A DNA stretch of 64,000 nucleotides from Streptomyces flavofungini. GTDB lineage: Bacteria; Actinomycetota; Actinomycetes; Streptomycetales; Streptomycetaceae. The notes beneath the pieces are model-generated. The model was given only the letters and a program-made list of their open reading frames with translations, searched no databases and was not told the DNA's origin. Positions 11,579 to 32,668 of the stretch are shown piece by piece; the first letter of the stretch is position 1, and each line of letters begins with the position of its first letter. A program made the position numbers and the translations under genes. The stretch is taken from contig NZ_CP128846.1 in assembly GCF_030388665.1 (NCBI RefSeq), positions 7,204,501-7,268,500 on the forward strand, written 5' to 3'.

Positions 11579-12340
11579 TCAGGCGCGGATGACCTGCGGC
11601 CCGCGCAGGGAGTAGCGGTGCGCCTCGGAAGCGGGCAACTGCACGCTGGTGACGATGGACTCCAGGTCGCCCACGCTCGCGAACCGGCAGAAGCTCGCCG
11701 CCCCGAACTTGGTGTGCACGCCCGCGAACACGGTGCGCCGGGAGGCCCGCATGGCCTGCGCCTTCACCTCGCTGACCGCGGGGTCGGGGGTGGTCAGACC
11801 GTGTTCGCGGGAGATGCCGTTGGCGCCGATGTACGCCAGGTCGATCACGAAGCCCGCGAGCATCCGGGTCGTCCAGTGGTCGACGGTGGCGAGTGTCCCG
11901 GACCGGACCCGGCCGCCGAGCAGCAGGACGGTCACGTGCTCGGACGCGGCGAGCGCGCCCGCCGTCGAGAGCGAGGCGGTGATCACGGTCAGCGGGCGGT
12001 TCTTGGGCAGCGCCTCGGCGATGAGCTGCGGGGTGAAGCCCTCGTCGATGAAGACGGTCTCGGCGTCGCCGAGCTGCGCGGCCGCCGCGGCCGCGATCCG
12101 CCGCTTCTCGGGCACGTGCATGGTCGTACGGAAGGCGAGGGTCGTCTCGAAGCCGGCGCTCTCCACCGGGTAGGCACCGCCGTGGGTGCGGCGGACCAGG
12201 CCGTGGTCCTCCAGGGCGCGCAGATCGCGGCGCACGGTCTCCTTGGCGACGCCGAGCTCGGCCGCGAGCACGGACACGTCGACGGATCCGGAGCGGCGTG
12301 CCGCGCGCACGATCTGCCGCTGACGTTCCTCCGCCGACAT
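11579..12340 (-). CDS. DeoR/GlpR-family sugar-responsive repressor
   Basis: A 253-aa regulator. The N-terminal winged helix-turn-helix reads VSVLAAELGVAKETVRRDLR, then RRTHGGA, the family signature. The C-terminal half is the DeoR sensor domain, with IDEGFTPQLIAEAL and a GGRVRSGTLATV-type phosphosugar-binding loop. The ATG at 12340 is preferred over a GTG three codons upstream because GAGG sits 8 bases before the ATG. It lies directly upstream of the ABC importer on the same strand, and probably represses that operon until a phosphorylated sugar or polyol is present (inference). Confidence 0.9.
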   Translation of the reverse strand: MSAEERQRQIVRAARRSGSVDVSVLAAELGVAKETVRRDLRALEDHGLVRRTHGGAYPVESAGFETTLAFRTTMHVPEKRRIAAAAAAQLGDAETVFIDEGFTPQLIAEALPKNRPLTVITASLSTAGALAASEHVTVLLLGGRVRSGTLATVDHWTTRMLAGFVIDLAYIGANGISREHGLTTPDPAVSEVKAQAMRASRRTVFAGVHTKFGAASFCRFASVGDLESIVTSVQLPASEAHRYSLRGPQVIRA

Positions 12341-12682
12341 GGGTGCCACCTCTTCCCACAGACTCCACTGCGATGTTCTGCCCGTTCGGGCCCTGTGGGG
12401 AAGTTCTACAGCGGGGGGAAGTCGGTGACCAGGCGCGCAACGACCAGGATGATGCCCGAATCCGCCCGTTCACCCGGGCGATGTCCTGCGCGGCAAGGCG
12501 ATCATGTGCCCGTTGATCGGCTCACGGTGCCCGTTTCCCGCCCGTTTCGCGTGCGGGCGGAGGGCGGGGCGAGGCCGGACGGCTGGAAATGAACGCTCGG
12601 AAAGGGACGGCCGTGGGCCTGCCGTCGGCCGGGACCGCCCGGGGCGGGACCGGGGCGGGGCGGCGGCTGGCCCACGGCCGCG
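12341..12682. other. 342-bp intergenic region upstream of the DeoR gene
   Basis: No convincing gene lies here. It should hold the promoter of the DeoR gene near 12350-12450, where an AT-richer stretch contains TTCTACAGCG. At the far end is the terminator hairpin of the secreted hydrolase gene (12608-12680). Confidence 0.6.
12608..12680 (-). terminator. Terminator hairpin after the secreted hydrolase
   Basis: CGGCCGTGGGCC (12608-12619) is perfectly complementary to GGCCCACGGCCG (12669-12680). The intervening 49 bases are themselves GC-rich and can fold. The inner arm ends 3 bp from the stop codon of the hydrolase gene (12683), so the structure is best read as its terminator. Confidence 0.65.
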
Positions 12683-13876
12683 TCAGGGCCGGTGGAAGCC
12701 GACCTCGGGGTGGGCGGGCGTCGGCCCGTCGAGCAGCGGCTGCCCGGTCCCGCGCAGGTGCCGGTCGTAGAACGCGGCGACGTAGGCGCGGGTGATCTGC
12801 TCGGACCGCCGCCCCGAGAGCGGCACCGCCGGGTCGTGCTCGCCGAGCCGGCCGAGGACGACCGGTGTGTCGGTGAACGTGAAGTGCCCGGCCCCGGTGA
12901 CCGTCAGCCAGCGCTTCCAGCCCTTCAGGCGCGGCCAGGCGGCGCCCCAGTCGTAGGGGTCGCCGGCCTGGACCGTGGTCGTGGTGCCGAGCAGCAGGAA
13001 GGGCCGGGCCACGCCGGCGGGCGTGGTGTGGAAGCCGCCGTCCATGTTCACGCCCGCGCGCACCCGCGGGTCGGTGTCCATCAGGGCGGCCGTGGCGGCG
13101 CCGCCGATGGAGTGTCCGCCCATCCCGATCCTGCGGGCGTCGATCATCCCGGAGTGCCGCCAGGTGGCCTTGCCCGACCTGCCGCCGACGAGCCGGTCCA
13201 GGACGTACGACAGGTCCTCGGCCCGGCCCGCGGTGATCCGCGGACCCGAGTCGCCCCCGCCGTCCACGCAGCCGACGCAGGGCGGCACGCGCCCGCCGTC
13301 GAACTCCGCTCCGGCCGCCTCGTGGGCGTGGTCGACCGTCGCGACCACGTACCCCCGGCTCGCCAGGTCCTCGGCGAGGTGCGTCAGCGTCGAGCGCGGC
13401 GCGGTGAAGCCGGGGGAGAGCACGACCAGCGGGAACCTGCCCCGCGCGGGATGTGCCCCGGTGCGGGCGTGGGTGCGCGTGGAGCCGTAGTCGGCGGCGG
13501 AGACGCGCCCGTCGAGCTCGTTGTACGCGAGCAGTTCCTGGGCCGCCTTCTCGGAGGTGTACGCGGTGGGCCGCCCGCCCGTGCCGCGCGCCGGGTAGTA
13601 CAGCGACAGCATCAGCTCCCGCGCCTCGGTCGGCACCCAGGGGTCCTTGCGGCTCTCGTCGACCAGGTGCAGGGTGTCGCGGCCGACGGTGAACCGGCCG
13701 GTGGGGCGCGGGAGTTCGGGCCGGGTCGTGGGCGCATCGGCGGCGACGGAGGCGGGCGCGGTGTCGGTGGCGGGTGCGGCCTGGGCGCTCGCCGTGGCCG
13801 CGAGGGGCACGGCGAGCGCCAGCGCGAGCACGGTGGCGACGGCGCGCCCGCGCGGGGTGTTCAGGGTGCGAGTCAT
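12683..13876 (-). CDS. Secreted alpha/beta hydrolase, PAF-acetylhydrolase/lipase-like
   Basis: A 397-aa secreted hydrolase. A Sec signal peptide (about 1-33, AVATVLALALAVPLAATASA) ends near the Ala-rich AQAAPA. The nucleophile elbow is GHSIGG with Ser256, and His331 in GAGHFTF is the likely catalytic histidine. An early strand PLVVLSPGFTAPRSTL supplies the oxyanion region. Overall it resembles the platelet-activating-factor acetylhydrolase and cutinase/lipase families, so an extracellular ester is the likely substrate. The CVGC pair (200-203) may form a disulfide. It is a monocistronic gene. Confidence 0.85.
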   Translation of the reverse strand: MTRTLNTPRGRAVATVLALALAVPLAATASAQAAPATDTAPASVAADAPTTRPELPRPTGRFTVGRDTLHLVDESRKDPWVPTEARELMLSLYYPARGTGGRPTAYTSEKAAQELLAYNELDGRVSAADYGSTRTHARTGAHPARGRFPLVVLSPGFTAPRSTLTHLAEDLASRGYVVATVDHAHEAAGAEFDGGRVPPCVGCVDGGGDSGPRITAGRAEDLSYVLDRLVGGRSGKATWRHSGMIDARRIGMGGHSIGGAATAALMDTDPRVRAGVNMDGGFHTTPAGVARPFLLLGTTTTVQAGDPYDWGAAWPRLKGWKRWLTVTGAGHFTFTDTPVVLGRLGEHDPAVPLSGRRSEQITRAYVAAFYDRHLRGTGQPLLDGPTPAHPEVGFHRP

Positions 13877-14786: not shown

Positions 14787-14808
14787 GCGGTGATCTCCTC
14801 GTACGCGT

Positions 14809-14829
14809 TCATGTATGAGATTCACATTC
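14809..14829. promoter_or_regulatory. Candidate operator of udh (copy 1 of a shared motif)
   Basis: The near-palindrome TCATGTATGA (14809-14818) runs into GATTCACATTC (14819-14829). It lies 23-43 bp before the udh start. The minus-strand reading, GAATGTGAATCTCATACATG, matches the site in front of kdgD (GGATGTGAATCATAAACGTG) and the palindrome in front of the DapA/IlvD pair (TCATATATGAGA). A common regulator is inferred. Confidence 0.6.
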
Positions 14830-14960
14830 GTGGACACGCTAGGGAGCGTGGCGTGCGACGTCAAGTGGGGCGCGGAGTCCGTGAATCCGGTCCTGAGTTG
14901 CGGGTTCGCGCGCTTGACCGGCCCGGCTTCGCGGCTTAGCGTGGGCGCGTTCAGGGATAT

Positions 14961-14980
14961 GGATGTGAATCATAAACGTG
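14961..14980. promoter_or_regulatory. Candidate operator of kdgD (copy 2 of the shared motif)
   Basis: GGATGTGAATCATAAACGTG lies 19-38 bp before the kdgD start. Its ATGTGAATC nonamer is an exact inverted copy of the one in the udh operator about 140 bp away, so the divergent genes are flanked by mirror-image half-sites. The GTG that ends this stretch opens the frame but lacks a ribosome site. Confidence 0.55.
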
Positions 14981-14998
14981 TACGCTAAGGGAGAGCCC

Positions 14999-15940
14999 GT
15001 GACGTCAGCCCCCCTCGCCGCCAGGCTCCGCGTTCCCAGCGGGCCGCTGTTCTTCCCGGTCACGCCGTACGCGGCCGACGGCTCCGTCGACATCGAGGCC
15101 TTCCGCACGCATGTGCGCGGGGGCGTGGAGGCGGGCGCCGCCGCGGTGTTCGCGTGCTGCGGCACGGGTGAGTTCCACGCGCTCACCCCCGAGGAGTTCC
15201 AGCTGCTCGTCACGGCCGCCGTCGAGGAGACCGCGGGCCGCGTCCCGGTGGTCGCGGGCGCCGGGTACGGCACCGCGCTCGCCGTCAGGTACGCGCGCAT
15301 CGCCGAGGCGGCGGGCGCCGACGGGCTCCTCGCCATGCCGCCGTACCTGGTGGTCGCCGCCCAGGAGGGCCTGCTGCGGCACTACACCGAACTGGCCGCC
15401 GCCACCTCCCTGGACGTCATCGTCTACCAGCGCGACAACGCCGTCTTCACCCCCGAGACGGTCGTCGAGTTCGCCCGCGCGGACGGCATCATCGGCTTCA
15501 AGGACGGCCTCGGGGACCTCGACCTGATGCAGCGCGTCGTCAGCGCCGTGCGCGCCGAGGCCCCCGGCGACTTCCTCTACTTCAACGGCCTGCCCACCGC
15601 CGAGCTGACCGGCCTCGCCTACCGCGGCATCGGCGTCAGCCTCTACTCCTCGGCCGTCTTCTGCTTCGCGCCCGACCTCGCGCTCGCCTTCCACAAGGCC
15701 CTGAACTCCGGCGACGACGAGACCGCGGAGCGCCTCATCGACGGCTTCTACCGGCCCTTCGTCGAACTGCGCAAGGAGGGCCGCGGCTACGCGGTCTCCC
15801 TCGTCAAGGCCGGGGTCCGCCTCGCCGGGCTCGACGTCGGCGGGGTGCGCCCGCCGCTGCACGAGCCCTCCGACGAGCACGTCAAGCGGCTCGCCGAACT
15901 CGTCGAGCGCGGCCGGGCACTGCTGCGGGAGGGCACGTGA
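14999..15940 (+). CDS. kdgD: 5-dehydro-4-deoxyglucarate dehydratase
   Basis: A 313-aa DapA-superfamily enzyme. It converts 5-keto-4-deoxy-D-glucarate to 2,5-dioxopentanoate (alpha-ketoglutarate semialdehyde), CO2 and water (EC 4.2.1.41). Signatures: FACCGTGEFHALTPEE, the substrate tyrosine Tyr143 in VYQRDN, and the Schiff-base Lys168 in IIGFKDG, which is the KdgD form of the motif. The GTG at 14999 is preferred because AAGGGAG lies 5 bases upstream, dropping seven upstream codons. The stop overlaps the next gene (GTGA). It belongs to the oxidative uronate pathway with the divergent udh. Confidence 0.92.
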   Translation: MTSAPLAARLRVPSGPLFFPVTPYAADGSVDIEAFRTHVRGGVEAGAAAVFACCGTGEFHALTPEEFQLLVTAAVEETAGRVPVVAGAGYGTALAVRYARIAEAAGADGLLAMPPYLVVAAQEGLLRHYTELAAATSLDVIVYQRDNAVFTPETVVEFARADGIIGFKDGLGDLDLMQRVVSAVRAEAPGDFLYFNGLPTAELTGLAYRGIGVSLYSSAVFCFAPDLALAFHKALNSGDDETAERLIDGFYRPFVELRKEGRGYAVSLVKAGVRLAGLDVGGVRPPLHEPSDEHVKRLAELVERGRALLREGT

Positions 15941-17103
15941 GAGCGTCCGCGTTCCTCTACCCCTGGGACGTCGTCGGCGACCCGCGGGCCGCCGCGCGGA
16001 TCGCGGACCTCGGCGTCGCACAGGTCACCCTCGCCGCCGCCTACCACTCCACCCGCGCCCTCACCCCCCGCCACCCCCGCCACCGCGTCGTCACCGCCGA
16101 GCACGCCGCGGTCCTGTACGAGCCGGACGACCGCTGGGCGGCCCGCGCCCTGCGCCCCCGCCCGGCCGGAGCCTGGGCCCCGGGCGACACCTACCAGGAG
16201 GCCGCCGACGCGCTGGCCGCCGCCGGGCTGGACGTGCACACCTGGGTGGTCCTCGCGCACAACTCCCGTCTGGGCGCCGAGCACCCGGACACCTCCGTCG
16301 TGAACGCCTACGGCGACCGCTACCCGTGGGCGCCCTGTATCGCGCAGCCCGCCACCCGCGCCTACCTGGTCGACCTCGCCGCGGAAGCCGCCACGAGGCC
16401 CTGCGCGGGCGGCACCGAACTGGAGTCGTGCGGCTGGTACGGCCTCGCGCACCTGCACGCCCACGACAAGATCGCGGGCGTGGGCCTCGGCGAGGCCGGG
16501 CAGTACCTGATGTCGCTGTGCTTCTGCGGGGGCTGCCGCGCCGGGTACGCCGGGCACGGCCACGACCCCGACGAACTGGCCGCCGCCGTGCGCCTCGCCC
16601 TGGAGCCGGTGTGGCGGGGCGCGGCCACCGACCCCGGCTGGACCGGCGTGGAGAAGCTCCTCGGCGCCGAGGCGGCGGCGGTCACCCGGGCCTGGCGCGA
16701 GGGGTGCGCCCGCGCGCTCCAGGAGGCGGCGGTCGGCGCGGTGCGCGCGGCGGCTCCCGACGGCTTCCGGGTGCTGCTGCACGCCGACCCGGTGGCCCAC
16801 CACTGCGGGGCCAACGCCGGAGTCGACCCGCGGCACGTCCTGTCCGTCGCCGACGGCGTGGTCGTGCCCTGCGCCTCCGGCCCCGGCCTGCTCGCGCCGT
16901 TCGCCGCGCACGCCGGTCCCGACACCGTCCTCGCGGCCAACCTCACGGTCGTGGCGGGCATGGGCGGCAGCCCCGCCACACTCACCGCCGACGCCCGCGC
17001 CGCGGCCCGCCACGGCGCCACTGAACTGCGGCTTTACCACGCCGGGTTGGCATCGGACGACGATCTGGCGCTGGTCGGGGCGGCCCTGTCGCAGATCGAC
17101 TGA
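15937..17103 (+). CDS. Uncharacterised protein translationally coupled to kdgD, possible TIM-barrel enzyme
   Basis: A 388-aa soluble protein I cannot assign to a known family. Its GTG start overlaps the kdgD stop by the GTGA arrangement. Visible motifs: NAYGDRYPWAPC (C134), ELESCGWYGLAHLHAHDK (C165), SLCFCGGC (C195, C197, C200), and LHADPVAHHCGANAG. Alternating hydrophobic strands and helices with Trp, Glu and His at strand ends suggest a TIM barrel. The CxCxxC block recalls predicted glycoside-hydrolase-like families in which a CxC-C cluster follows a barrel strand. There is no signal peptide. Given the coupling, an intracellular role on uronides or aldarates is plausible, for example releasing free uronate or acting on a pathway lactone. 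This is inference only. Confidence 0.8.
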   Translation: MRASAFLYPWDVVGDPRAAARIADLGVAQVTLAAAYHSTRALTPRHPRHRVVTAEHAAVLYEPDDRWAARALRPRPAGAWAPGDTYQEAADALAAAGLDVHTWVVLAHNSRLGAEHPDTSVVNAYGDRYPWAPCIAQPATRAYLVDLAAEAATRPCAGGTELESCGWYGLAHLHAHDKIAGVGLGEAGQYLMSLCFCGGCRAGYAGHGHDPDELAAAVRLALEPVWRGAATDPGWTGVEKLLGAEAAAVTRAWREGCARALQEAAVGAVRAAAPDGFRVLLHADPVAHHCGANAGVDPRHVLSVADGVVVPCASGPGLLAPFAAHAGPDTVLAANLTVVAGMGGSPATLTADARAAARHGATELRLYHAGLASDDDLALVGAALSQID

Positions 17104-17205
17104 CAACGGCTACGATCCGCGCACCACACGCCGCGAACAGGCGAGAACAGGGTGAACCCACCCGCTCGCCCCGCGGCGGGACTCATCGTCAGACGAGGAG
17201 ACAAG

Positions 17206-18561
17206 GTGCGCAACAAGGGGATATCCGCGCTGGTCTGTGCCGGCCTCACGGCGGGCGCGGCGGTGCTCGCGACCACGGCGCCCGCGGCCGCGCAGACCGC
17301 GCAGACCGGCCCCCGCCCCACCGGCACGGCCGACATCCGCGAACAGCTCGAGAACATCCCGGGCATGACGGTCGTCTCCGTCACGGAGAAGGAGGGCCAC
17401 CCCCTCTACTCCCTGACGTACCGCCAGCCCGTCGACCACCACCGCCCCACAGCCTCCGGGACCTTCACCCAGCGCCTGACTCTCTGGCACAAGGCCACCG
17501 ACAAGCCGACCGTCCTCTACACCGGCGGCTACACCCTCGCCTCCGGCACCACCGCCCTCACCAAGCTGATCGACGCCAACCAGGTCAGCCTGGAGCACCG
17601 CTACTTCGAGCAGTCCCGCCCCGCCGGCGCCGCGGGCAAGGACTGGTCCAAGATGACCGTCCAGCAGGAGGCGGCCGACGAGCATCGCATCACCAAGGCC
17701 CTGCGCACCGTCGAGAAGGGCAAGTGGCTCGGCACGGGCGCCAGCAAGGGCGGCATGACCGCCACGTACCACGAGCGCTTCTACCCGGGCGACCTGGACG
17801 CCGTCGTCGCCTTCGTGGCCCCCAACGACGCGAACAACAAGGACGACAGCACCTACGAGCGCTTCTTCAGGACCGTCGGCACCAAGGAGTGCCGCACCGC
17901 CCTGAACGCCGTGCAGCGCGAGATGCTGGTGCGCCGCGACGCGCTCCTGCCCAAGTTCGAGGCGGACGCCAAGGCCAACGGCCAGACCTTCCACGAGACG
18001 CTCGGCACCACCGACCGGGCGTACGAGTTCGCCGTCCTCGACCAGGTGTGGAACTTCTGGCAGTCCGGCACCGCCGCCGACTGCCCGACCGTGCCCGACG
18101 CGAAGAAGGCCAGTGACGACGAGCTCTACGACTGGTCGAAGAAGCACGGCCTGAGCGTCTACCACGACGCCGAGCTCGGCGAGAACGGCACCGGCCCCTA
18201 CTACCGCCAGGCCGCCACCCAACTCGGCTGGGCCGACCTGAAGTTCAAGCACCTCAAGGACGTGCGCCACTACCCGGACATCTACCAGCCGAACTCGGTG
18301 CTCCCGCCCGCCATGCGCGGCTCGTACGACAACAGCACCATCGCCGACGTCGACCGCTGGGTGAAGACCCGCGGGCAGCGGATGATGTTCGTCTACGGCG
18401 AGAACGACCCGTGGAGCGCGGAGCGGTTCACGCCGAGCCACCGCGACTCGTACCTGTACGAGGTGCCGGGCGCCAACCACGGCGCGAGCATCGCGAAGCT
18501 GCCCGAGCCGCAGCAGTCGCGGGCCGTCGCCACCATCAAGCGCTGGGCCGGCGTGCGGTAG
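17206..18561 (+). CDS. Secreted S37-family tripeptidyl/prolyl aminopeptidase
   Basis: A 451-aa exported serine peptidase of the Streptomyces S37 (PS-10) type. The signal peptide is about residues 1-29 (ISALVCAGLTAGAAVLATTAPAAA). The nucleophile is Ser180 in GTGASKGGMTATYHERFYP, the S37 signature. The C-terminal part has FVYGENDPW, with a probable catalytic Asp, and GANHGAS, with the catalytic His. The start at 17206 (GTG) has GAGGAG 5 bases upstream, so the 18-codon upstream extension is rejected. It releases N-terminal peptides from extracellular proteins during growth on protein. The last 26 bp overlap the 3' end of the convergent MFS gene. Confidence 0.9.
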   Translation: MRNKGISALVCAGLTAGAAVLATTAPAAAQTAQTGPRPTGTADIREQLENIPGMTVVSVTEKEGHPLYSLTYRQPVDHHRPTASGTFTQRLTLWHKATDKPTVLYTGGYTLASGTTALTKLIDANQVSLEHRYFEQSRPAGAAGKDWSKMTVQQEAADEHRITKALRTVEKGKWLGTGASKGGMTATYHERFYPGDLDAVVAFVAPNDANNKDDSTYERFFRTVGTKECRTALNAVQREMLVRRDALLPKFEADAKANGQTFHETLGTTDRAYEFAVLDQVWNFWQSGTAADCPTVPDAKKASDDELYDWSKKHGLSVYHDAELGENGTGPYYRQAATQLGWADLKFKHLKDVRHYPDIYQPNSVLPPAMRGSYDNSTIADVDRWVKTRGQRMMFVYGENDPWSAERFTPSHRDSYLYEVPGANHGASIAKLPEPQQSRAVATIKRWAGVR

Positions 18562-19753
18562 CGCGCCCGGCCACGGACCGGAGCAGGGGCGTGGCGATCA
18601 GCAGCCGCGCCCCCGCGAGGGCGTACAACGGCAGCCGGTGGTCGACGAGTTCGACGAGCGCCGCGCCCAGGGCGATGCCCGCCGCCGTCGGCGCGAACAT
18701 CAGCGTGCCCGCGGTCGCCGCGACCCGCCCCACCAGCTCCTGCGGCGCCTCGCGCTGCACGGCCGTCAGCGCGGCCACGAGCACGCACGGCAGCCCCACC
18801 CCGTTCGCGAGGCTCCCCGTGAGCACCAGCGCGTCCCACGGCAGAGCGAGGAGCACCGCCGACACCGCGGTCAGCGCGATCCCGCCGCCCGCGAACCGCC
18901 GCTCGCCCACGCGCCGCATCAGGGCGCCCGAGGCGATCCCGACGGCGACGGACCCGGCGCCCTGCGCGACGTACAGCGCGCCCGTGTACGCGGGGGAGTG
19001 GCCGAGCGCCTCGACGATCGCGTAGACGAGCGCGCCGCTGACGCCCGACGACAGCATGGTGAGCCCGCCCGCGACCACCAGCGGCCGCAGCCGCCCGTCG
19101 CCCCACAGCAGCCGGGCGCCCCGCGCGGTGCCCGCCCGCCACCCCTCCGGGTCCGGCGCCGGGCGTGCCTCCGCCACCCGGAGCAGCGCGAAGAGACCAC
19201 CGGCAAGGACGAACGTGACGGCGTCGAGCAGCGCCACCCGCGGTCCGCCCCAGGCGGCGAACACCGCGGCCCCGGCCAGCGGCGCCACCAGCTTCATGCC
19301 CTCGTTCGCGGACATCCGCAGCCCGTTGAGGTCCCCGAGCAGGTCCTTGCCGACGGCCCCCGCGACCAGGGCGGCCTCCGCCGCGTCCGTGACCACCCCG
19401 CACGCCCCGTACACCACGAGCACGGCGAACAGCAGCCACAGCCCCGCCGCACCGCCCACGCGGTCCACCCACAGCAGGGACAGCAGCAGCACCCCGAGGC
19501 CCACGTTCACGGCGACCAGCAGGGGCCGGCGCCGGGTGCGGTCGGCGAGGGTGCCGAGCAGGGGGCCGAGGAGCAGCGGGGCCCAGAGGGCGAGCGTGCA
19601 CAGGGCCGCCAGGCCGTCGGAGCCGGTCAGCTCCTTCACCCAGATGCCCGACACCAGCGTCATCGCGGAACTCCCGAACCCGGAGACCACGACCGCCGTC
19701 AGGTACAGGCCCGCGTTGCGGTCCCGCAGGACACGTCCGATCGTCGTTGCCAT
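18536..19753 (-). CDS. MFS transporter, enterobactin-exporter/DHA-like
   Basis: A 405-aa, roughly 12-helix major facilitator. The first helix is YLTAVVVSGFGSSAMTLVSG. The A-loop between helices 2 and 3 carries GTLADRTRRRPLL, the GxxxDRxxRR motif. The family includes multidrug and siderophore exporters such as EntS-like proteins, and substrate is not deducible. The ATG at 19753 is taken because upstream in-frame sequence is Arg/Ser-rich and not membrane-like. The 3' end overlaps the convergent peptidase gene by 26 bp. Confidence 0.85.
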   Translation of the reverse strand: MATTIGRVLRDRNAGLYLTAVVVSGFGSSAMTLVSGIWVKELTGSDGLAALCTLALWAPLLLGPLLGTLADRTRRRPLLVAVNVGLGVLLLSLLWVDRVGGAAGLWLLFAVLVVYGACGVVTDAAEAALVAGAVGKDLLGDLNGLRMSANEGMKLVAPLAGAAVFAAWGGPRVALLDAVTFVLAGGLFALLRVAEARPAPDPEGWRAGTARGARLLWGDGRLRPLVVAGGLTMLSSGVSGALVYAIVEALGHSPAYTGALYVAQGAGSVAVGIASGALMRRVGERRFAGGGIALTAVSAVLLALPWDALVLTGSLANGVGLPCVLVAALTAVQREAPQELVGRVAATAGTLMFAPTAAGIALGAALVELVDHRLPLYALAGARLLIATPLLRSVAGRATARRPSA

Positions 19754-19893
19754 GTGCCCGAGGCTGGTTCTGAGGCCGCGCGCAGGGCATCGGGCAGATG
19801 CCCTACGCGGCGGCGATGAGTTCGGCGCGCCCGGGGAGTCGACCTGAGGAGAAGGCCTTACCAGGGCCTCGTACGCGGACGAAGGAGAACCCC

Positions 19894-20496
19894 ATGCCGG
19901 ACGACACCGAGGCCCTGCTGCCGGACTTCGGCCCGCAGACACAACTCGTGGCGCGGCTCGCCGGAGCCGTCAAGGACGACCAGCTCGACGGGCCCACGCC
20001 CTGCCCCGACTACGCGGTGCGCCACCTCCTCGGCCACGTCGTCTTCCTGACCCTCGCCTTCACCGAGGCCGGCCGCAAAGAGCTCGGGGAGATCACGGGC
20101 ACCGACCCGGGCAGCGCCCTGCCGGACCTCGCCGAGGGCTGGCGGGAGGCACTGCCGGGGCAGCTCGCCCTGCTCGCCGAGGCGTGGCGGGACCCGGCGG
20201 CGTGGACCGGGGACACCCGGGCGGCCGACGTCGACCTGCCCGGCGACATCGCGGGCACCATCGCCATGAACGAACTCGTCCTGCACGGCTGGGACCTGGC
20301 GCGCGCCACGGGCCAGGAGTACGCCCCCGACGAGGCCGGCCTCGCCGTCTCCTACGCCATGGTGTCCGCCACGGCGGCGGAGCCGCCCGAGGCCCGGGGA
20401 AACCTCTTCGGGCCGCCGCTGCCGGTCCCCGAGGGCGCCTCGCTCCTGGACCAGGTGGTGGCCCTGAGCGGGCGCGACCCGGCGTGGCGGCCCTGA
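19894..20496 (+). CDS. DinB/maleylpyruvate isomerase-like protein (TIGR03086-type)
   Basis: A 200-aa protein of the mycothiol-dependent maleylpyruvate isomerase N-terminal superfamily, a four-helix DinB-like bundle. The motif PTPCPDYAVRHLLGHV provides the first metal histidine and NELVLHGWDLARATG the second His region, as in actinomycete TIGR03086 proteins. These are mostly uncharacterised and thought to be mycothiol-linked transferases or isomerases. The ATG at 19894 has AAGGAG 7 bases upstream. It is divergent from the MFS gene and is the only gene in its transcript. Confidence 0.82.
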   Translation: MPDDTEALLPDFGPQTQLVARLAGAVKDDQLDGPTPCPDYAVRHLLGHVVFLTLAFTEAGRKELGEITGTDPGSALPDLAEGWREALPGQLALLAEAWRDPAAWTGDTRAADVDLPGDIAGTIAMNELVLHGWDLARATGQEYAPDEAGLAVSYAMVSATAAEPPEARGNLFGPPLPVPEGASLLDQVVALSGRDPAWRP

Positions 20497-20644
20497 CCCG
20501 GGATGACCGGGCTGACCCGGTGCGACCGGGCGACCGGGAGCGACAGGTGCGCCCGGGAGTGACGGGGCGGCGCAACGACCGGTCGTCGCACAGCCGTTGA
20601 CGCGGCCCGTGCGGCGCGCCTAGCTTCATCGCGTCGTACTTCAT

Positions 20645-20662
20645 GCGTCATATATGAGACGC
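20645..20662. promoter_or_regulatory. Palindromic candidate operator of the DapA/IlvD pair (copy 3 of the shared motif)
   Basis: GCGTCATATATGAGACGC contains a perfect 10-bp palindrome TCATATATGA (20648-20657) inside GCGTC/GACGC arms. It is 23-40 bp before the ATG at 20685, the same distance as the related motif before udh. TCATRTATGAGA is shared between the two sites with a single difference. Confidence 0.65.
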
Positions 20663-20684: not shown

Positions 20685-21637
20685 ATGACTCCAGCGACCT
20701 CAGGAACCTCGGCCTCAGGGACGGCGGAGCCCCCGTGGGACGCATCGGACCCGCGCCGCGCCGCCCTCGCCGACGTCGTGGCCATCCCCGTCACCCCGTT
20801 CGCCGCGGACGGCTCCCTCGACCGCGCGGCCCACCGCGCCCTGCTGCGCCGCCTGCTCGACACGGGCGTCCGCACGCTCACGCCGAACGGCAACACCGGC
20901 GAGTTCTACGCCCTGAGCCCCGAGGAGCGGCGCGCCGTCACCGAGCTGACCGTCGCCGAGGCCGGGGAGCGGGCCGCCGTCGTCGTCGGCGTCGGGCACG
21001 ACCTGGCGACCGCGACGGCCGACGCCCGGCACGCCGCCGAGACGGGCGCGCGCCTGGTGATGGTCCACCAGCCCGCGCACCCGTACGTCTCCGGCGCCGG
21101 CTGGGTCGCCTACCACCGGGCCGTCGCCGAGGCCGTGCCCGGTCTCGGTGTCGTGCCCTACGTACGCGACGCGGCCCTGCCGGGAGCCCGGCTCGCCGAA
21201 CTGGCCGACGCCTGCCCGAACGTCACCGGTGTGAAGTACGCGGTGCCGGACGCGGCACGCTTCGCGGCGTTCGCGCGGGACGCGGGCGCCGAGCGGTTCG
21301 TGTGGGTGGCGGGCCTCGCGGAGCCGTACGCGCCCGCGTACTTCTCGGCCGGGGCGACCGGCTTCACCTCGGGCCTGGTCAACGTGGCGCCGCTGCTCTC
21401 GTTCGCGATGCTGGGGGCGCTGCGGGAGGGCGACCACGGCACGGCGATGGCGGTGTGGGAGCGGATCCGCCGCTTCGAGGAACTGCGGGCCGCCGACGGC
21501 TCGGCGGCCAACGTGTCCGTGGTGAAGGAGGCGCTCGCGGTCCTCGGCCTGTGCCGCCGCGACGTACGCCCGCCGAGCAGCGTGCTGCCGGAGCCGGTGC
21601 GCGCGGAGGTCGCGCAGATCGTGGCGGGGTGGGGCCG

Positions 21638-21641
<4 letters not shown>
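20685..21641 (+). CDS. DapA-family 2-keto-3-deoxy-sugar-acid dehydratase/aldolase
   Basis: A 318-aa member of the dihydrodipicolinate synthase superfamily with a 28-residue extra N-terminus. Core features: IPVTPFAADGS, NGNTGEFYALSPEER, Tyr159 in VVPYVRD and Schiff-base Lys184 in VTGVKYAV. It is not lysine biosynthetic DapA: the context is sugar acid degradation, coupled by a GTGA overlap to an IlvD/Edd dehydratase. Together they would dehydrate a pentonate or similar aldonate to a 2-keto-3-deoxy acid and then convert that either to alpha-ketoglutarate semialdehyde (dehydratase, as for 2-keto-3-deoxy-L-arabinonate) or by aldol cleavage. The dehydratase option fits the semialdehyde dehydrogenase at 31127, but sequence alone cannot choose. 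Confidence 0.87.
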
Positions 21642-23386
<1,745 letters not shown>

Positions 23387-30167: not shown

Positions 30168-30941
30168 TCAGAGCCGCCGGGTGGCCAGGGTGAGCCGGTC
30201 CCGGGCGTCGAACAGCGCGTCCTTGACCATCTGCTCGTGGGCGGGCGTGAGCCGGGCCACCGGCACCGAGCAGCTGATGGCGTCGCGCGCGGGGGTGCGG
30301 TAGGGGATGGCCACGCCGAAGCAGCGCAGGCCGAGGGTGTTCTCCTCGCGGTCCACGGCGAAGCCCTGCTCGCGCACCGCGTGCAGCTCCTCGATGAGCT
30401 TCTCGCGGTCGGTGATCGTGTTCTCGGTCAGCGACGGCAGTGTCTCGGGGAGCATCTTGCGGACCTGCTCGTCGGTGTGGGAGGCGAGCAGCGCCTTGCC
30501 GAGCGACGTGGAGTGGGCGGGCAGGCGCCGGCCCACGCGCGTGAAGGGGCGCAGGTAGTGCTGGGACTGGCGGGTGGCCAGGTACACCACGTTGGTGCCG
30601 TCGAGGCGGGCGAGGTGGATGGTCTCCGTGGTGTCGTCCGAGAGCCGGTCCAGCGTCGGGCGGGCCGCGGCGACGACCTCGTCGCCGTCGATGTACGACG
30701 TGCCGACGAGCAGCGCCCGCACCCCGATGCCGTACCGCGTACCGGTCGCGTCCGTCTCGATCCAGCCCAGCTCCACGAGGGTGCGAAGCAGCATGTAGAG
30801 GCTGGACTTCGGGTACCCGACGGCCTCCTGGACCTCGGCGAGGGCGTGCATCCCGGGCCGCCCCGCGAAGAACTCCAGCAACTCCACCGTCCGCACCGCG
30901 GACTTGACCTGCGCGCCCCCGCCCGTCTCCCCAGCCGACAT
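30168..30941 (-). CDS. IclR-family transcriptional regulator
   Basis: A 257-aa regulator. The N-terminal winged helix (about 10-80) reads SAVRTVELLEFFAGRPGMHALAE..GYPKSSLYMLLRTLVELGW. The C-terminal effector domain has HSTSLGKALLA and GFAVDREENTLGLRCFGVAI, the IclR signature region. It is divergent from the alpha-ketoglutarate-semialdehyde dehydrogenase gene with 185 bp between, containing palindromes, and therefore likely regulates it in response to a keto acid or sugar acid (inference). Start at ATG 30941. Confidence 0.9.
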   Translation of the reverse strand: MSAGETGGGAQVKSAVRTVELLEFFAGRPGMHALAEVQEAVGYPKSSLYMLLRTLVELGWIETDATGTRYGIGVRALLVGTSYIDGDEVVAAARPTLDRLSDDTTETIHLARLDGTNVVYLATRQSQHYLRPFTRVGRRLPAHSTSLGKALLASHTDEQVRKMLPETLPSLTENTITDREKLIEELHAVREQGFAVDREENTLGLRCFGVAIPYRTPARDAISCSVPVARLTPAHEQMVKDALFDARDRLTLATRRL

Positions 30942-31008
30942 CGCCCTTGACCCCTCACGTCCGACAGGAAATAGTCTCCACTGTCCCCCACGATTCATCA
31001 TCGGGGAC

Positions 31009-31030
31009 GGCGTTCAGCATATCGAACGCC
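31009..31030. promoter_or_regulatory. Palindrome between the IclR gene and the semialdehyde dehydrogenase gene
   Basis: GGCGTTC (31009-31015) and GAACGCC (31024-31030) are perfect inverted arms around AGCATATC. Immediately to the left, GTCCCC (30983) and GGGGAC (31003) form a second inverted pair. The position, between divergent start codons (30941 and 31127), suits an IclR operator. Confidence 0.5.
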
Positions 31031-31126: not shown

Positions 31127-32668
31127 GTGGCAGCAGCACCAGTCTGGAGTGTGGACCCCCGAACCGGGAAGCGGCGCGCACAGGTCGCCGCCGAGGCCAC
31201 CGCGCAGGACGTGGACCGGGCCGTCACGGCCGCGCACGCGGCGCGCGCCGCGCTGGCCGACCGCACCGTCCGCGCGGCCTTCCTGCGCACCGCGGCCGAC
31301 CTCCTGGAGGCCGCCGAGGACGACCTCGTCGCGACCGCGGACGCCGAGACGGCCCTCGGCACCGCCCGCCTGACCGGCGAACTGGCCCGCACCCGCTACC
31401 AGTTGCGGGCCTTCGCGGACCTCGTCGACGAGGGCGCCTACCTCGGCGTCGTCATCGACCACCCCGACAGCGCCGCCACACCCCCCGTCCCCGAGCTGCG
31501 CCGCTACAAGATCCCGCTCGGCGTCGTCGCCGTCTACGCCGCCTCCAACTTCCCCTTCGCCTTCTCCGTGCCCGGCGGCGACACCGCGAGCGCCCTCGCC
31601 GCCGGCTGCCCCGTCGTCGTCAAGGCGCACCCCGACCACCCCGACACCTCCGAGCGCGTCGCCGCCGTCCTGCGCGCCGCCGCCGCGCGCCACGAACTGC
31701 CCGAGGCCGTCGTCGGCCTGGTGCACGGCTTCGACGCGGGCGTCGACCTGGTCCGCCACCCGCTGGTCGCCGCCGCGGGCTTCACCGGCTCGGTGCGCGG
31801 CGGCCGGGCCCTGTTCGACGCGGCGGCCGCGCGCCCCGTGCCGATCCCCTTCCACGGCGAACTCGGCTCCCTCAACCCGGTCGTCGTCACCGAGGCCGCG
31901 GCCGCCGAGCGCGGTGAGCAGATCGGCACCGGCCTCGCCGGGTCCATGACCCTCGGCGTCGGCCAGTTCTGCGTGAAGCCCGGCCTGGTCCTCGCCCCCG
32001 AGGGCGCGGGCGGCGACCGCCTCCTGAAGTCCCTGACGGAAGGCCTCGGCGCCACCGCCGCCGGGGTCCTCCTCGACCACCGCATGCGCGACAACTTCGT
32101 CGCCGGAGTCGTCGAGCGCGCCCAACTGCCCGACGTGAGCGCCCCGGTGGCGCCCGGCGCGGCCGACGAGCACACCGTCACCGCCGGCTTCCTCGCCGTC
32201 CCGGCCGCCCGCCTCGCCGCCGAGGGCGTCCACGACCTGCTCCTCGAAGAGTGCTTCGGGCCGGTCACCGTCGTCGCCCGGTACGCGGACGAGGCCGAGA
32301 TCAGCGCGGTGCTCGCCCGGCTCCCCGGCAACCTCACCGCGACCGTGCACCTGTCCGCCGACGAGGCCGCGGACGCCCCGGCCGCCCAGGGCCGCGGCCC
32401 CCGGCTCCTGGCCGAACTGACCCCGCTGGCCGGGCGGGTCCTGGTCGACGGCTGGCCCACCGGCGTGGCCGTGGCCCCCGCCCAGCAGCACGGCGGCCCC
32501 TACCCCGCCACCACCAGCACCTCGACGTCCGTCGGCGGCACCGCCATCGAGCGCTGGCTGCGCCCCGTCGCGTACCAGAACACCCCCGAGGCGCTCCTGC
32601 CGCCGGAACTCCACGACGCCAATCCCCTCGGTCTGCCGCGCCGCTACGACGGACGCCTGGAACACTGA
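31127..32668 (+). CDS. Alpha-ketoglutarate semialdehyde (2,5-dioxovalerate) dehydrogenase
   Basis: A 513-aa aldehyde dehydrogenase of the type III KGSADH branch. It oxidises 2,5-dioxopentanoate to 2-oxoglutarate with NAD(P), the last step of oxidative uronate and pentonate catabolism. Active-site Glu245 (PFHGELGSLNP) and Cys282 (GVGQFCVKPG) are present; ELGS-NP and GQFC are characteristic of this branch. The cofactor region is YAASNFPFAFSVPGGDTASA. The GTG start has GGAGGAA about 8 bases upstream. A DUF1349 gene follows 4 bp later. Its substrate is the product of KdgD (14999) and possibly of the DapA-family enzyme (20685). Confidence 0.88.
   Translation: MAAAPVWSVDPRTGKRRAQVAAEATAQDVDRAVTAAHAARAALADRTVRAAFLRTAADLLEAAEDDLVATADAETALGTARLTGELARTRYQLRAFADLVDEGAYLGVVIDHPDSAATPPVPELRRYKIPLGVVAVYAASNFPFAFSVPGGDTASALAAGCPVVVKAHPDHPDTSERVAAVLRAAAARHELPEAVVGLVHGFDAGVDLVRHPLVAAAGFTGSVRGGRALFDAAAARPVPIPFHGELGSLNPVVVTEAAAAERGEQIGTGLAGSMTLGVGQFCVKPGLVLAPEGAGGDRLLKSLTEGLGATAAGVLLDHRMRDNFVAGVVERAQLPDVSAPVAPGAADEHTVTAGFLAVPAARLAAEGVHDLLLEECFGPVTVVARYADEAEISAVLARLPGNLTATVHLSADEAADAPAAQGRGPRLLAELTPLAGRVLVDGWPTGVAVAPAQQHGGPYPATTSTSTSVGGTAIERWLRPVAYQNTPEALLPPELHDANPLGLPRRYDGRLEH

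Follow-up and report, generated by a model that had tools for sequence, protein, structure and literature searches.

What does it mean when the promoters of three sugar-acid transcription units carry nearly the same short words? The question is raised by a stretch of 64 kb (hereafter the window) from the 9.36-Mb genome of Streptomyces flavofungini (contig NZ_CP128846.1, positions 7,204,501 to 7,268,500), which holds a uronate dehydrogenase-like gene (udh), a 5-dehydro-4-deoxyglucarate dehydratase-like gene (kdgD) and a pair of genes for DapA- and IlvD-family dehydratases (dapA-ilvD). The uronate and L-arabinonate routes both end at 2-oxoglutarate semialdehyde, the one intermediate that all three units are thought to feed, and a preliminary description of the locus proposed one motif and one regulator for all of them, either an IclR protein encoded at 30168 or a GntR-type protein from outside the window. 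The answer that we regard as highly probable, from comparison of sequences, is that there are two independent circuits, in which an IclR-family regulator would act on udh, kdgD and its own gene (iclR), and a GntR-family regulator on dapA-ilvD and its own gene (gntR). The conservation, placement and specificity of the sites, their co-occurrence with the regulator genes and the gene context are observed directly, and from them we infer binding, the sign of control and the ligands. Both regulators proposed earlier are probably right, for different genes.

The strings that prompted the question are indeed present, TCATGTATGAGATTCACATT at 14809-14828, GGATGTGAATCATAAACGTG at 14961-14980 and TCATATATGAGACGC at 20648-20662, with their near edges 18-22 bp from the likely starts of udh (14786, minus strand), kdgD (GTG at 14999) and dapA (ATG at 20685). 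The word TCATRTATGAGA has only three exact matches in the genome, at udh, at dapA and at 7731762, the last inside a called reading frame, and a further 15 with one mismatch, among them TCGTATATGAGA at 339295, directly before the gene of a GntR/FCD regulator; ATGTGAATC has seven matches in the whole genome. Rarity did not, however, mean conservation. When 138 udh spacers were compared, the window's among them (where kdgD does not stand beside udh, the stretch compared was the upstream region to a maximum of 400 bp), the 12-mer TCATGTATGAGA was found in three, those of the window and of L249 and L250, the two relatives nearest to it, whose udh is 97 and 95% identical to the window's, and TCATATATGAGA in none of the 138. 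At udh, ATGTGAAT belongs to the conserved core; at kdgD the corresponding columns of the alignment give RGACGNNNATCA, with ATATGAATC in L249 and L250, so that the two copies of ATGTGAATC are out of register inside one shared operator. Judged by these alignments, TCATGTATGAGA before udh is a clade-specific coincidence or a recent gain. What survives of the single motif is an operator common to udh and kdgD, the relatives' alignment giving dapA-ilvD a different one; among orthologues both of these operators are conserved and the 12-mer at udh is not. The earlier reader saw real conserved operators through words that were partly coincidental, and rare words common to one genome's promoters can mislead until relatives are aligned.

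The feature that udh and kdgD share with the spacer between iclR and a divergent aldehyde dehydrogenase gene (aldh) is a 35-bp element made of two 16-bp imperfect palindromes, approximately GTTCA-N6-TRGAC, set 19 bp apart. In the aligned kdgD leaders (125 of the 138 spacers passed the cut) it reads approximately GTTCA-KAAAT-RTRGAC followed, after a 3-bp spacer, by a unit close to RATCAKAANNRTGNAC, and in the leaders of udh (130 of 138) it reads ATTCACATNCRTGGAC, the other unit, at a distance of 19 bp, being weaker. The single 16-mer pattern RTTCANAWNYRTGGAC, allowing two mismatches, proved too unspecific genome-wide (150 matches against 70 for the reversed control), and the 35-bp profile was therefore used instead. 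A matrix built from 114 distinct 35-mers of relatives' kdgD sites, with the window's own left out, scores kdgD at 50.3, udh at 19.3 on the minus strand and the iclR/aldh spacer at 8.8 across the window, the next match falling to -0.3. Among the spacers, 129 of 137 (window included) carry a kdgD site scoring above 20, and the 143 matches above 5 in 80 named loci, each centred on gntR, comprise 133 between udh and kdgD, two at iclR and eight elsewhere. None of 1000 column-shuffled matrices reached the observed median of 8.6 for the udh halves (n=107) or of 13.4 for the iclR spacers (n=30), the shuffles scoring every third udh and gntR sequence. The gntR leaders, for which only the 71 of 80 loci exceeding 20 kb were used, gave a median of -13.0 that 494 of the 1000 shuffles reached, which is no better than the shuffles, and the window's dapA leader scores -22.7.

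The presence of the operator in the iclR/aldh spacer supports the IclR protein at 30168 as the regulator of udh and kdgD. The kdgD-type element occurs at every one of the 30 iclR loci retrieved, 29 from relatives and one from the window, as ATTCATCATCAGAGAC-AGC-GTTCAGTATATCGAAC or close variants scoring 8.3-23.4, and the protein matches PF09339 (54.1 bits) and PF01614 (138.4 bits) above their cut-offs, as befits the IclR family. In a sample of 121 Streptomyces genomes, S. flavofungini included, iclR is matched at E<=1e-90 in 107, and the cut-offs used give 75 genomes with gntR, 74 with a DapA-like protein, 91 with KdgD and 99 with Udh. KdgD orthologues, defined for the co-occurrence counts as best hits of at least 66% identity with weaker ones scored absent, are found in 80 of the 107 genomes with IclR and in 2 of the 14 without. 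The kdgD site is kept in 14 of 14 sampled genomes that have a KdgD orthologue and no gntR (lowest score 36.7), and GntR is therefore not needed for its upkeep; IclR is present in 13 of these 14, the exception (G114) being an assembly of about 800 contigs. Some genomes without gntR (G044, G064 and G034) have iclR and kdgD no more than about 6 kb apart.

How far might the IclR circuit extend? A second profile, R1, was assembled from 48 sites (picks of 20 kdgD, 20 udh and 16 iclR, less 1, 5 and 2 removed by hand, some of the udh picks because the automatic choice was visibly wrong) and searched in 12 genomes. In that of S. flavofungini it has four matches, at udh (E 0.007), iclR (0.007), kdgD (0.03) and, at 7866070, before an alginate-lyase-family gene (0.116). 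Over the 12 genomes 15 matches with E<=1 fall outside udh, kdgD and iclR, and 13 of them lie at lyase or symporter genes: five alginate-lyase-family, four pectate-lyase-like (PF12708), one Pel9A-like and three sodium:solute symporter genes. As lyases and symporters were absent from the training of R1, no other independent evidence for a uronate regulon is as strong as these 13 of 15. The Pel9A-like beta-helix gene, in G009, has its match about 100 bp upstream, where it also overlaps the start of a cytochrome-assembly gene called on its other side, and several of the 13 sites overlap the first called start codon, the called starts being provisional. In two genomes with IclR and no KdgD or Udh hit (G012 and G038) the top R1 match lies in the iclR/aldh spacer, with individually weak E-values of 0.67 and 0.16. 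On the evidence of these sites, enzymes for the digestion of acidic polysaccharides may also be under IclR control, and we think it likely that it is a genus-wide Streptomyces switch of uronic-acid polymer use, covering lyases, symporter, Udh, KdgD, iclR and the divergent aldehyde dehydrogenase. The prediction that follows is that the lyase genes are controlled by uronic acids or by one of their products.

The operator before dapA belongs, to judge from its relatives, to gntR. In relatives CGTCATATATGAGACG is the leader site of a gntR-dapA-ilvD operon, with a core identical in 109 of 109 gntR leaders (80 named loci and 29 sample genomes, gntR at least 81% identical). With at most one mismatch it occurs in 71 of the 121 genomes, that is in 70 of 75 with gntR and 1 of 46 without (G069), and in all 70 the downstream gntR match lies 19-117 bp away (median 34). 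The gene context is equally regular, gntR and dapA occurring together in 74 genomes, gntR alone in one and dapA alone in none, while gntR, dapA and ilvD stand together in 79 of the 80 named loci, and udh and kdgD also lie within about 10 kb in 68 of the 80. The consensus operator kind quoted for the FCD (FadR-type) subfamily of GntR regulators in passages of PMC6608401 is TKGT/ACMA; in CGTCATATATGAGACG GT and AC are confined to positions near the ends of the core, and a preceding TCGTACG is frequent, not invariant. In S. flavofungini dapA-ilvD has no adjacent gntR, which is found instead at 338.6-339.3 kb of the 9.11-Mb contig, the window lying at 7.20-7.27 Mb, and is preceded by CGTCGTATATGAGACG, a one-base variant of CGTCATATATGAGACG. 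Its product matches PF00392 (66.1 bits) and PF07729 (76 bits) above cut-off, the GntR helix-turn-helix and FCD domains respectively.

Both S. flavofungini and S. alboflavus (L189) have a solitary gntR surrounded by other genes. At the place where S. flavofungini has gntR alone, S. aureoverticillatus (L169) has the whole gntR-dapA-ilvD operon, its dapA, ilvD and udh being 80, 88 and 95% identical to those of the window, and no dapA or ilvD remnant was found within 3 kb after the relocated gntR. From these comparisons the operon was likely split by duplication with loss or by replacement. Many relatives (L169-L248) carry 14-bp repeats near GATACGCGAGATCC in variable number, situated after the GntR operator and before the ribosome site of gntR; these differ between species while the operator is constant. 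A second, distant TGTCATATATGAGACG site, which may be a further target of GntR, occurs in G029, G052, G053, G065 and G072, and additional sites are also present in G119.

Could the two circuits nevertheless meet at udh? If the window's clade had gained a weak GntR site there, TCATGTATGAGA would be a lineage-specific cross-link, in keeping with its restriction to the window, L249 and L250; we consider this unlikely, given that TCATGTATGAGA differs from the GntR core, which is identical in all 109 relatives' leaders compared, by an extra T and the absence of the outer CG (CGTTCATGTATGAGATTC), and that the stretch sits inside the IclR operator. It is very unlikely that another regulator, such as the neighbouring DeoR (11579-12349), recognises the udh/kdgD element and that the iclR match is incidental. 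DeoR proteins often use direct repeats and deoR lies near udh in many loci, but the word that recurs in the regions upstream of deoR is another one (all 70 contain AACGGGC and 69 of them at least two ACGGGC), a recurrence that led to the rejection of DeoR in this role, and the kdgD-type element is present in 30 of 30 iclR spacers and is the top match in the two genomes without KdgD and Udh hits. That a single regulator, IclR or GntR, serves all three units through one motif is scarcely credible, for despite the rarity of TCATRTATGAGA and the common intermediate the idea was rejected on the 138-spacer comparison and the matrix tests and is further opposed by the kdgD sites that persist without gntR; the earlier claim therefore divides into IclR, likely for udh and kdgD, and the outside GntR, likely for dapA-ilvD.

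Several points weigh against the two-circuit reading as well. On the IclR side, the udh site scores above 5 in only 102 of 137 spacers, its outer unit being weak; the window's iclR site scores below those of 26 of the 29 relatives; and KdgD occurs without an IclR match in G114 and in G001, which is 79% complete. The kdgD matrix was trained on stretches of at least 100 bp, admitted with up to six mismatches to a hand-made consensus, and its training set includes L249 and L250. The R1 matches at the window's own udh, iclR and kdgD are circular, because among the sites in R1 are the window's own for kdgD and iclR and an L250 udh site letter-identical to the window's, which leaves the matches at lyases, at symporters and in other genomes as the informative ones; R1 scored 150 of 731-1087 first-look candidates per genome, and its E-values are rough; and two of the 15 extra matches misfit, one inside a called frame (G121:C8) and one where a YhfZ-like regulator gene starts (G044:1743925). 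On the GntR side, 6 of the 70 gntR-linked sites have one mismatch, that of S. flavofungini's own gntR included, and five genomes with gntR lack the 16-mer at one mismatch or fewer; in none of the five does the identity of gntR exceed 74%. All genome tallies are raw counts that ignore shared ancestry.

The two-circuit reading suggests the following mechanism. The IclR protein, probably as two dimers side by side, would bind the tandem 16-bp palindromes at the start regions of udh and kdgD, as well as its own promoter region, and would most likely be a repressor lifted by a uronate-derived sugar acid. Its genus-wide regulon would probably add uronic-acid-polymer lyases and a sodium:solute symporter, so that polymer breakdown, uptake and oxidation would be switched together. 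The GntR/FCD protein would bind at two places, CGTCATATATGAGACG immediately after the dapA-ilvD promoter and the site of nearly the same sequence in the gntR leader, and would most likely be a repressor that responds to a compound of the pentonate pathway. The operators lie at or after the -10 element, abutting it at udh and starting 6 bp past it at kdgD and 19 bp past it at dapA, placements that would be compatible with a repressor obstructing initiation or the early phase of elongation. The protein families are all of known kinds. Udh, KdgD and the aldehyde dehydrogenase would place IclR on the oxidative uronate route, and the IlvD-type and DapA-family dehydratases would place GntR on the L-arabinonate route. 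Among the matches listed from the open-licence literature, as titles and abstract openings, neither an IclR uronate regulon nor this GntR regulon is described for Streptomyces; for the catabolism of sugar acids in this genus the analysis yields two regulators that can be named and two precise operators that can be tested cheaply.

Table 1. Predicted operators, promoter-like sequences and genes of the two circuits (window coordinates unless a contig is named; promoters read from sequence).
Feature	Position	Strand	Remarks
udh, uronate dehydrogenase-like short-chain dehydrogenase/reductase, 269 aa	13977..14786	-	Epimerase Pfam hit
Predicted IclR operator of udh	14801..14835	-	two 16-bp units, 19-bp period; abuts -10
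udh promoter-like TTGACG-17-TAGCGT	14836..14864	-	
kdgD promoter-like TTGACC-17-TAGCGT	14914..14942	+	
Predicted IclR operator of kdgD	14949..14983	+	score 50.3, own sequence out of matrix
kdgD, 5-dehydro-4-deoxyglucarate dehydratase-like	14999..15940	+	NCBIfam PRK03620 432.6 bits (cut-off 278)
Conserved gene, family unassigned	15937..17103	+	overlaps kdgD end; adjoins kdgD in many relatives
dapA promoter-like TTGACG-18-TAGCTT	20597..20626	+	
Predicted GntR operator CGTCATATATGAGACG	20646..20661	+	exact copy before window's dapA
DapA-family dehydratase	20685..21641	+	Pfam DHDPS; gntR-dapA-ilvD context
IlvD/Edd-family, L-arabinonate dehydratase-like	21638..23386	+	NCBIfam PRK13016 894.9 bits
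IclR-family regulator	30168..30941	-	start likely ATG at 30941; HTH_IclR and IclR_C domains
Predicted IclR operator in iclR/aldh spacer	30993..31027	+	score 8.8
Aldehyde dehydrogenase, divergent from iclR	31127..32668	+	Aldedh Pfam; candidate 2-oxoglutarate semialdehyde dehydrogenase
GntR/FCD regulator	G000:C1:338604-339266 (= L010:3602-4267)	-	outside window

The promoters of udh, kdgD and dapA have a common pattern, TTGAC-17/18-TAGC(G/T)T, with the candidate sites after it (Table 1). The Udh protein is 80% identical to its match in L229, S. viridochromogenes DSM 40736, a strain with a characterised Udh (PMC4476818) that may be the product of this gene. The KdgD protein falls within the broader PRK03620 subfamily and below the equivalog cut-off of TIGR03249 (320.7 against 373.95), whereas the IlvD-type protein exceeds the L-arabinonate dehydratase equivalog cut-off of 882. 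The aldehyde dehydrogenase has 1eyy and 3v4c as nearest solved chains and reaches no NCBIfam equivalog cut-off among the 25 models listed. The longest kdgD frame begins inside the operator (14978-14999), and several orthologue matches covering its first residues hold an in-frame TAG, which makes the GTG at 14999 the likelier start. The gene that overlaps kdgD at its end has no Pfam match. In the window a PAF-AH/PETase-like hydrolase gene (12683-13876) separates udh from deoR; many named relatives have deoR about 300 bp beyond udh. The AACGGGC before deoR (12349-12690), usually repeated, is likely a DeoR autoregulatory operator for sugar ABC transporter genes.

How, finally, do the two circuits compare with known systems? 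On the GntR side a close known system is HypR of S. coelicolor, a GntR/FCD autorepressor whose regulon, according to passages of PMC6608401, includes 2-oxoglutarate semialdehyde dehydrogenase homologues. The GntR of S. flavofungini is likewise a GntR/FCD protein and a putative autorepressor, but HypR recognises CTNTGC(A/C)ATGTCAC at hydroxyproline genes and is set apart by motif and targets from a regulator reading CGTCATATATGAGACG before dapA-ilvD. The IclR circuit resembles the tandem-site regulators of that family, in which palindromes 18-22 nt apart (mainly 19-21) were described for 94 of 181 groups in the main text of Suvorova and Gelfand (2021, PMC8222616): the protein has the IclR domains, its units are near-palindromic and of the GTNC...GNAC kind, and their centres are 19 bp apart at kdgD and iclR and, more weakly, at udh. 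Neither 'uronate' nor 'galacturonate' occurs as a word start in that main text, and this IclR may be in the supplementary regulon tables. The protein at 30168 falls below the equivalog cut-off of BhcR (NF045644, 172.8 against 350). A further parallel is KdgR, the gamma-proteobacterial IclR-family regulator of pectin and oligogalacturonate use with the motif RWWGAAACGNCGTTTCAKKA (PMC8222616, Table 1), which likewise brings uronic-acid polymer breakdown and catabolism into one regulon. The two differ in motif, in the score of the S. flavofungini protein for PRK15090 (129.1 against the KdgR equivalog cut-off of 275) and in the oxidative route of udh and kdgD. If the wider regulon is true, IclR would be an actinobacterial counterpart of KdgR, on a different branch of the IclR family and with an oxidative pathway under its control.

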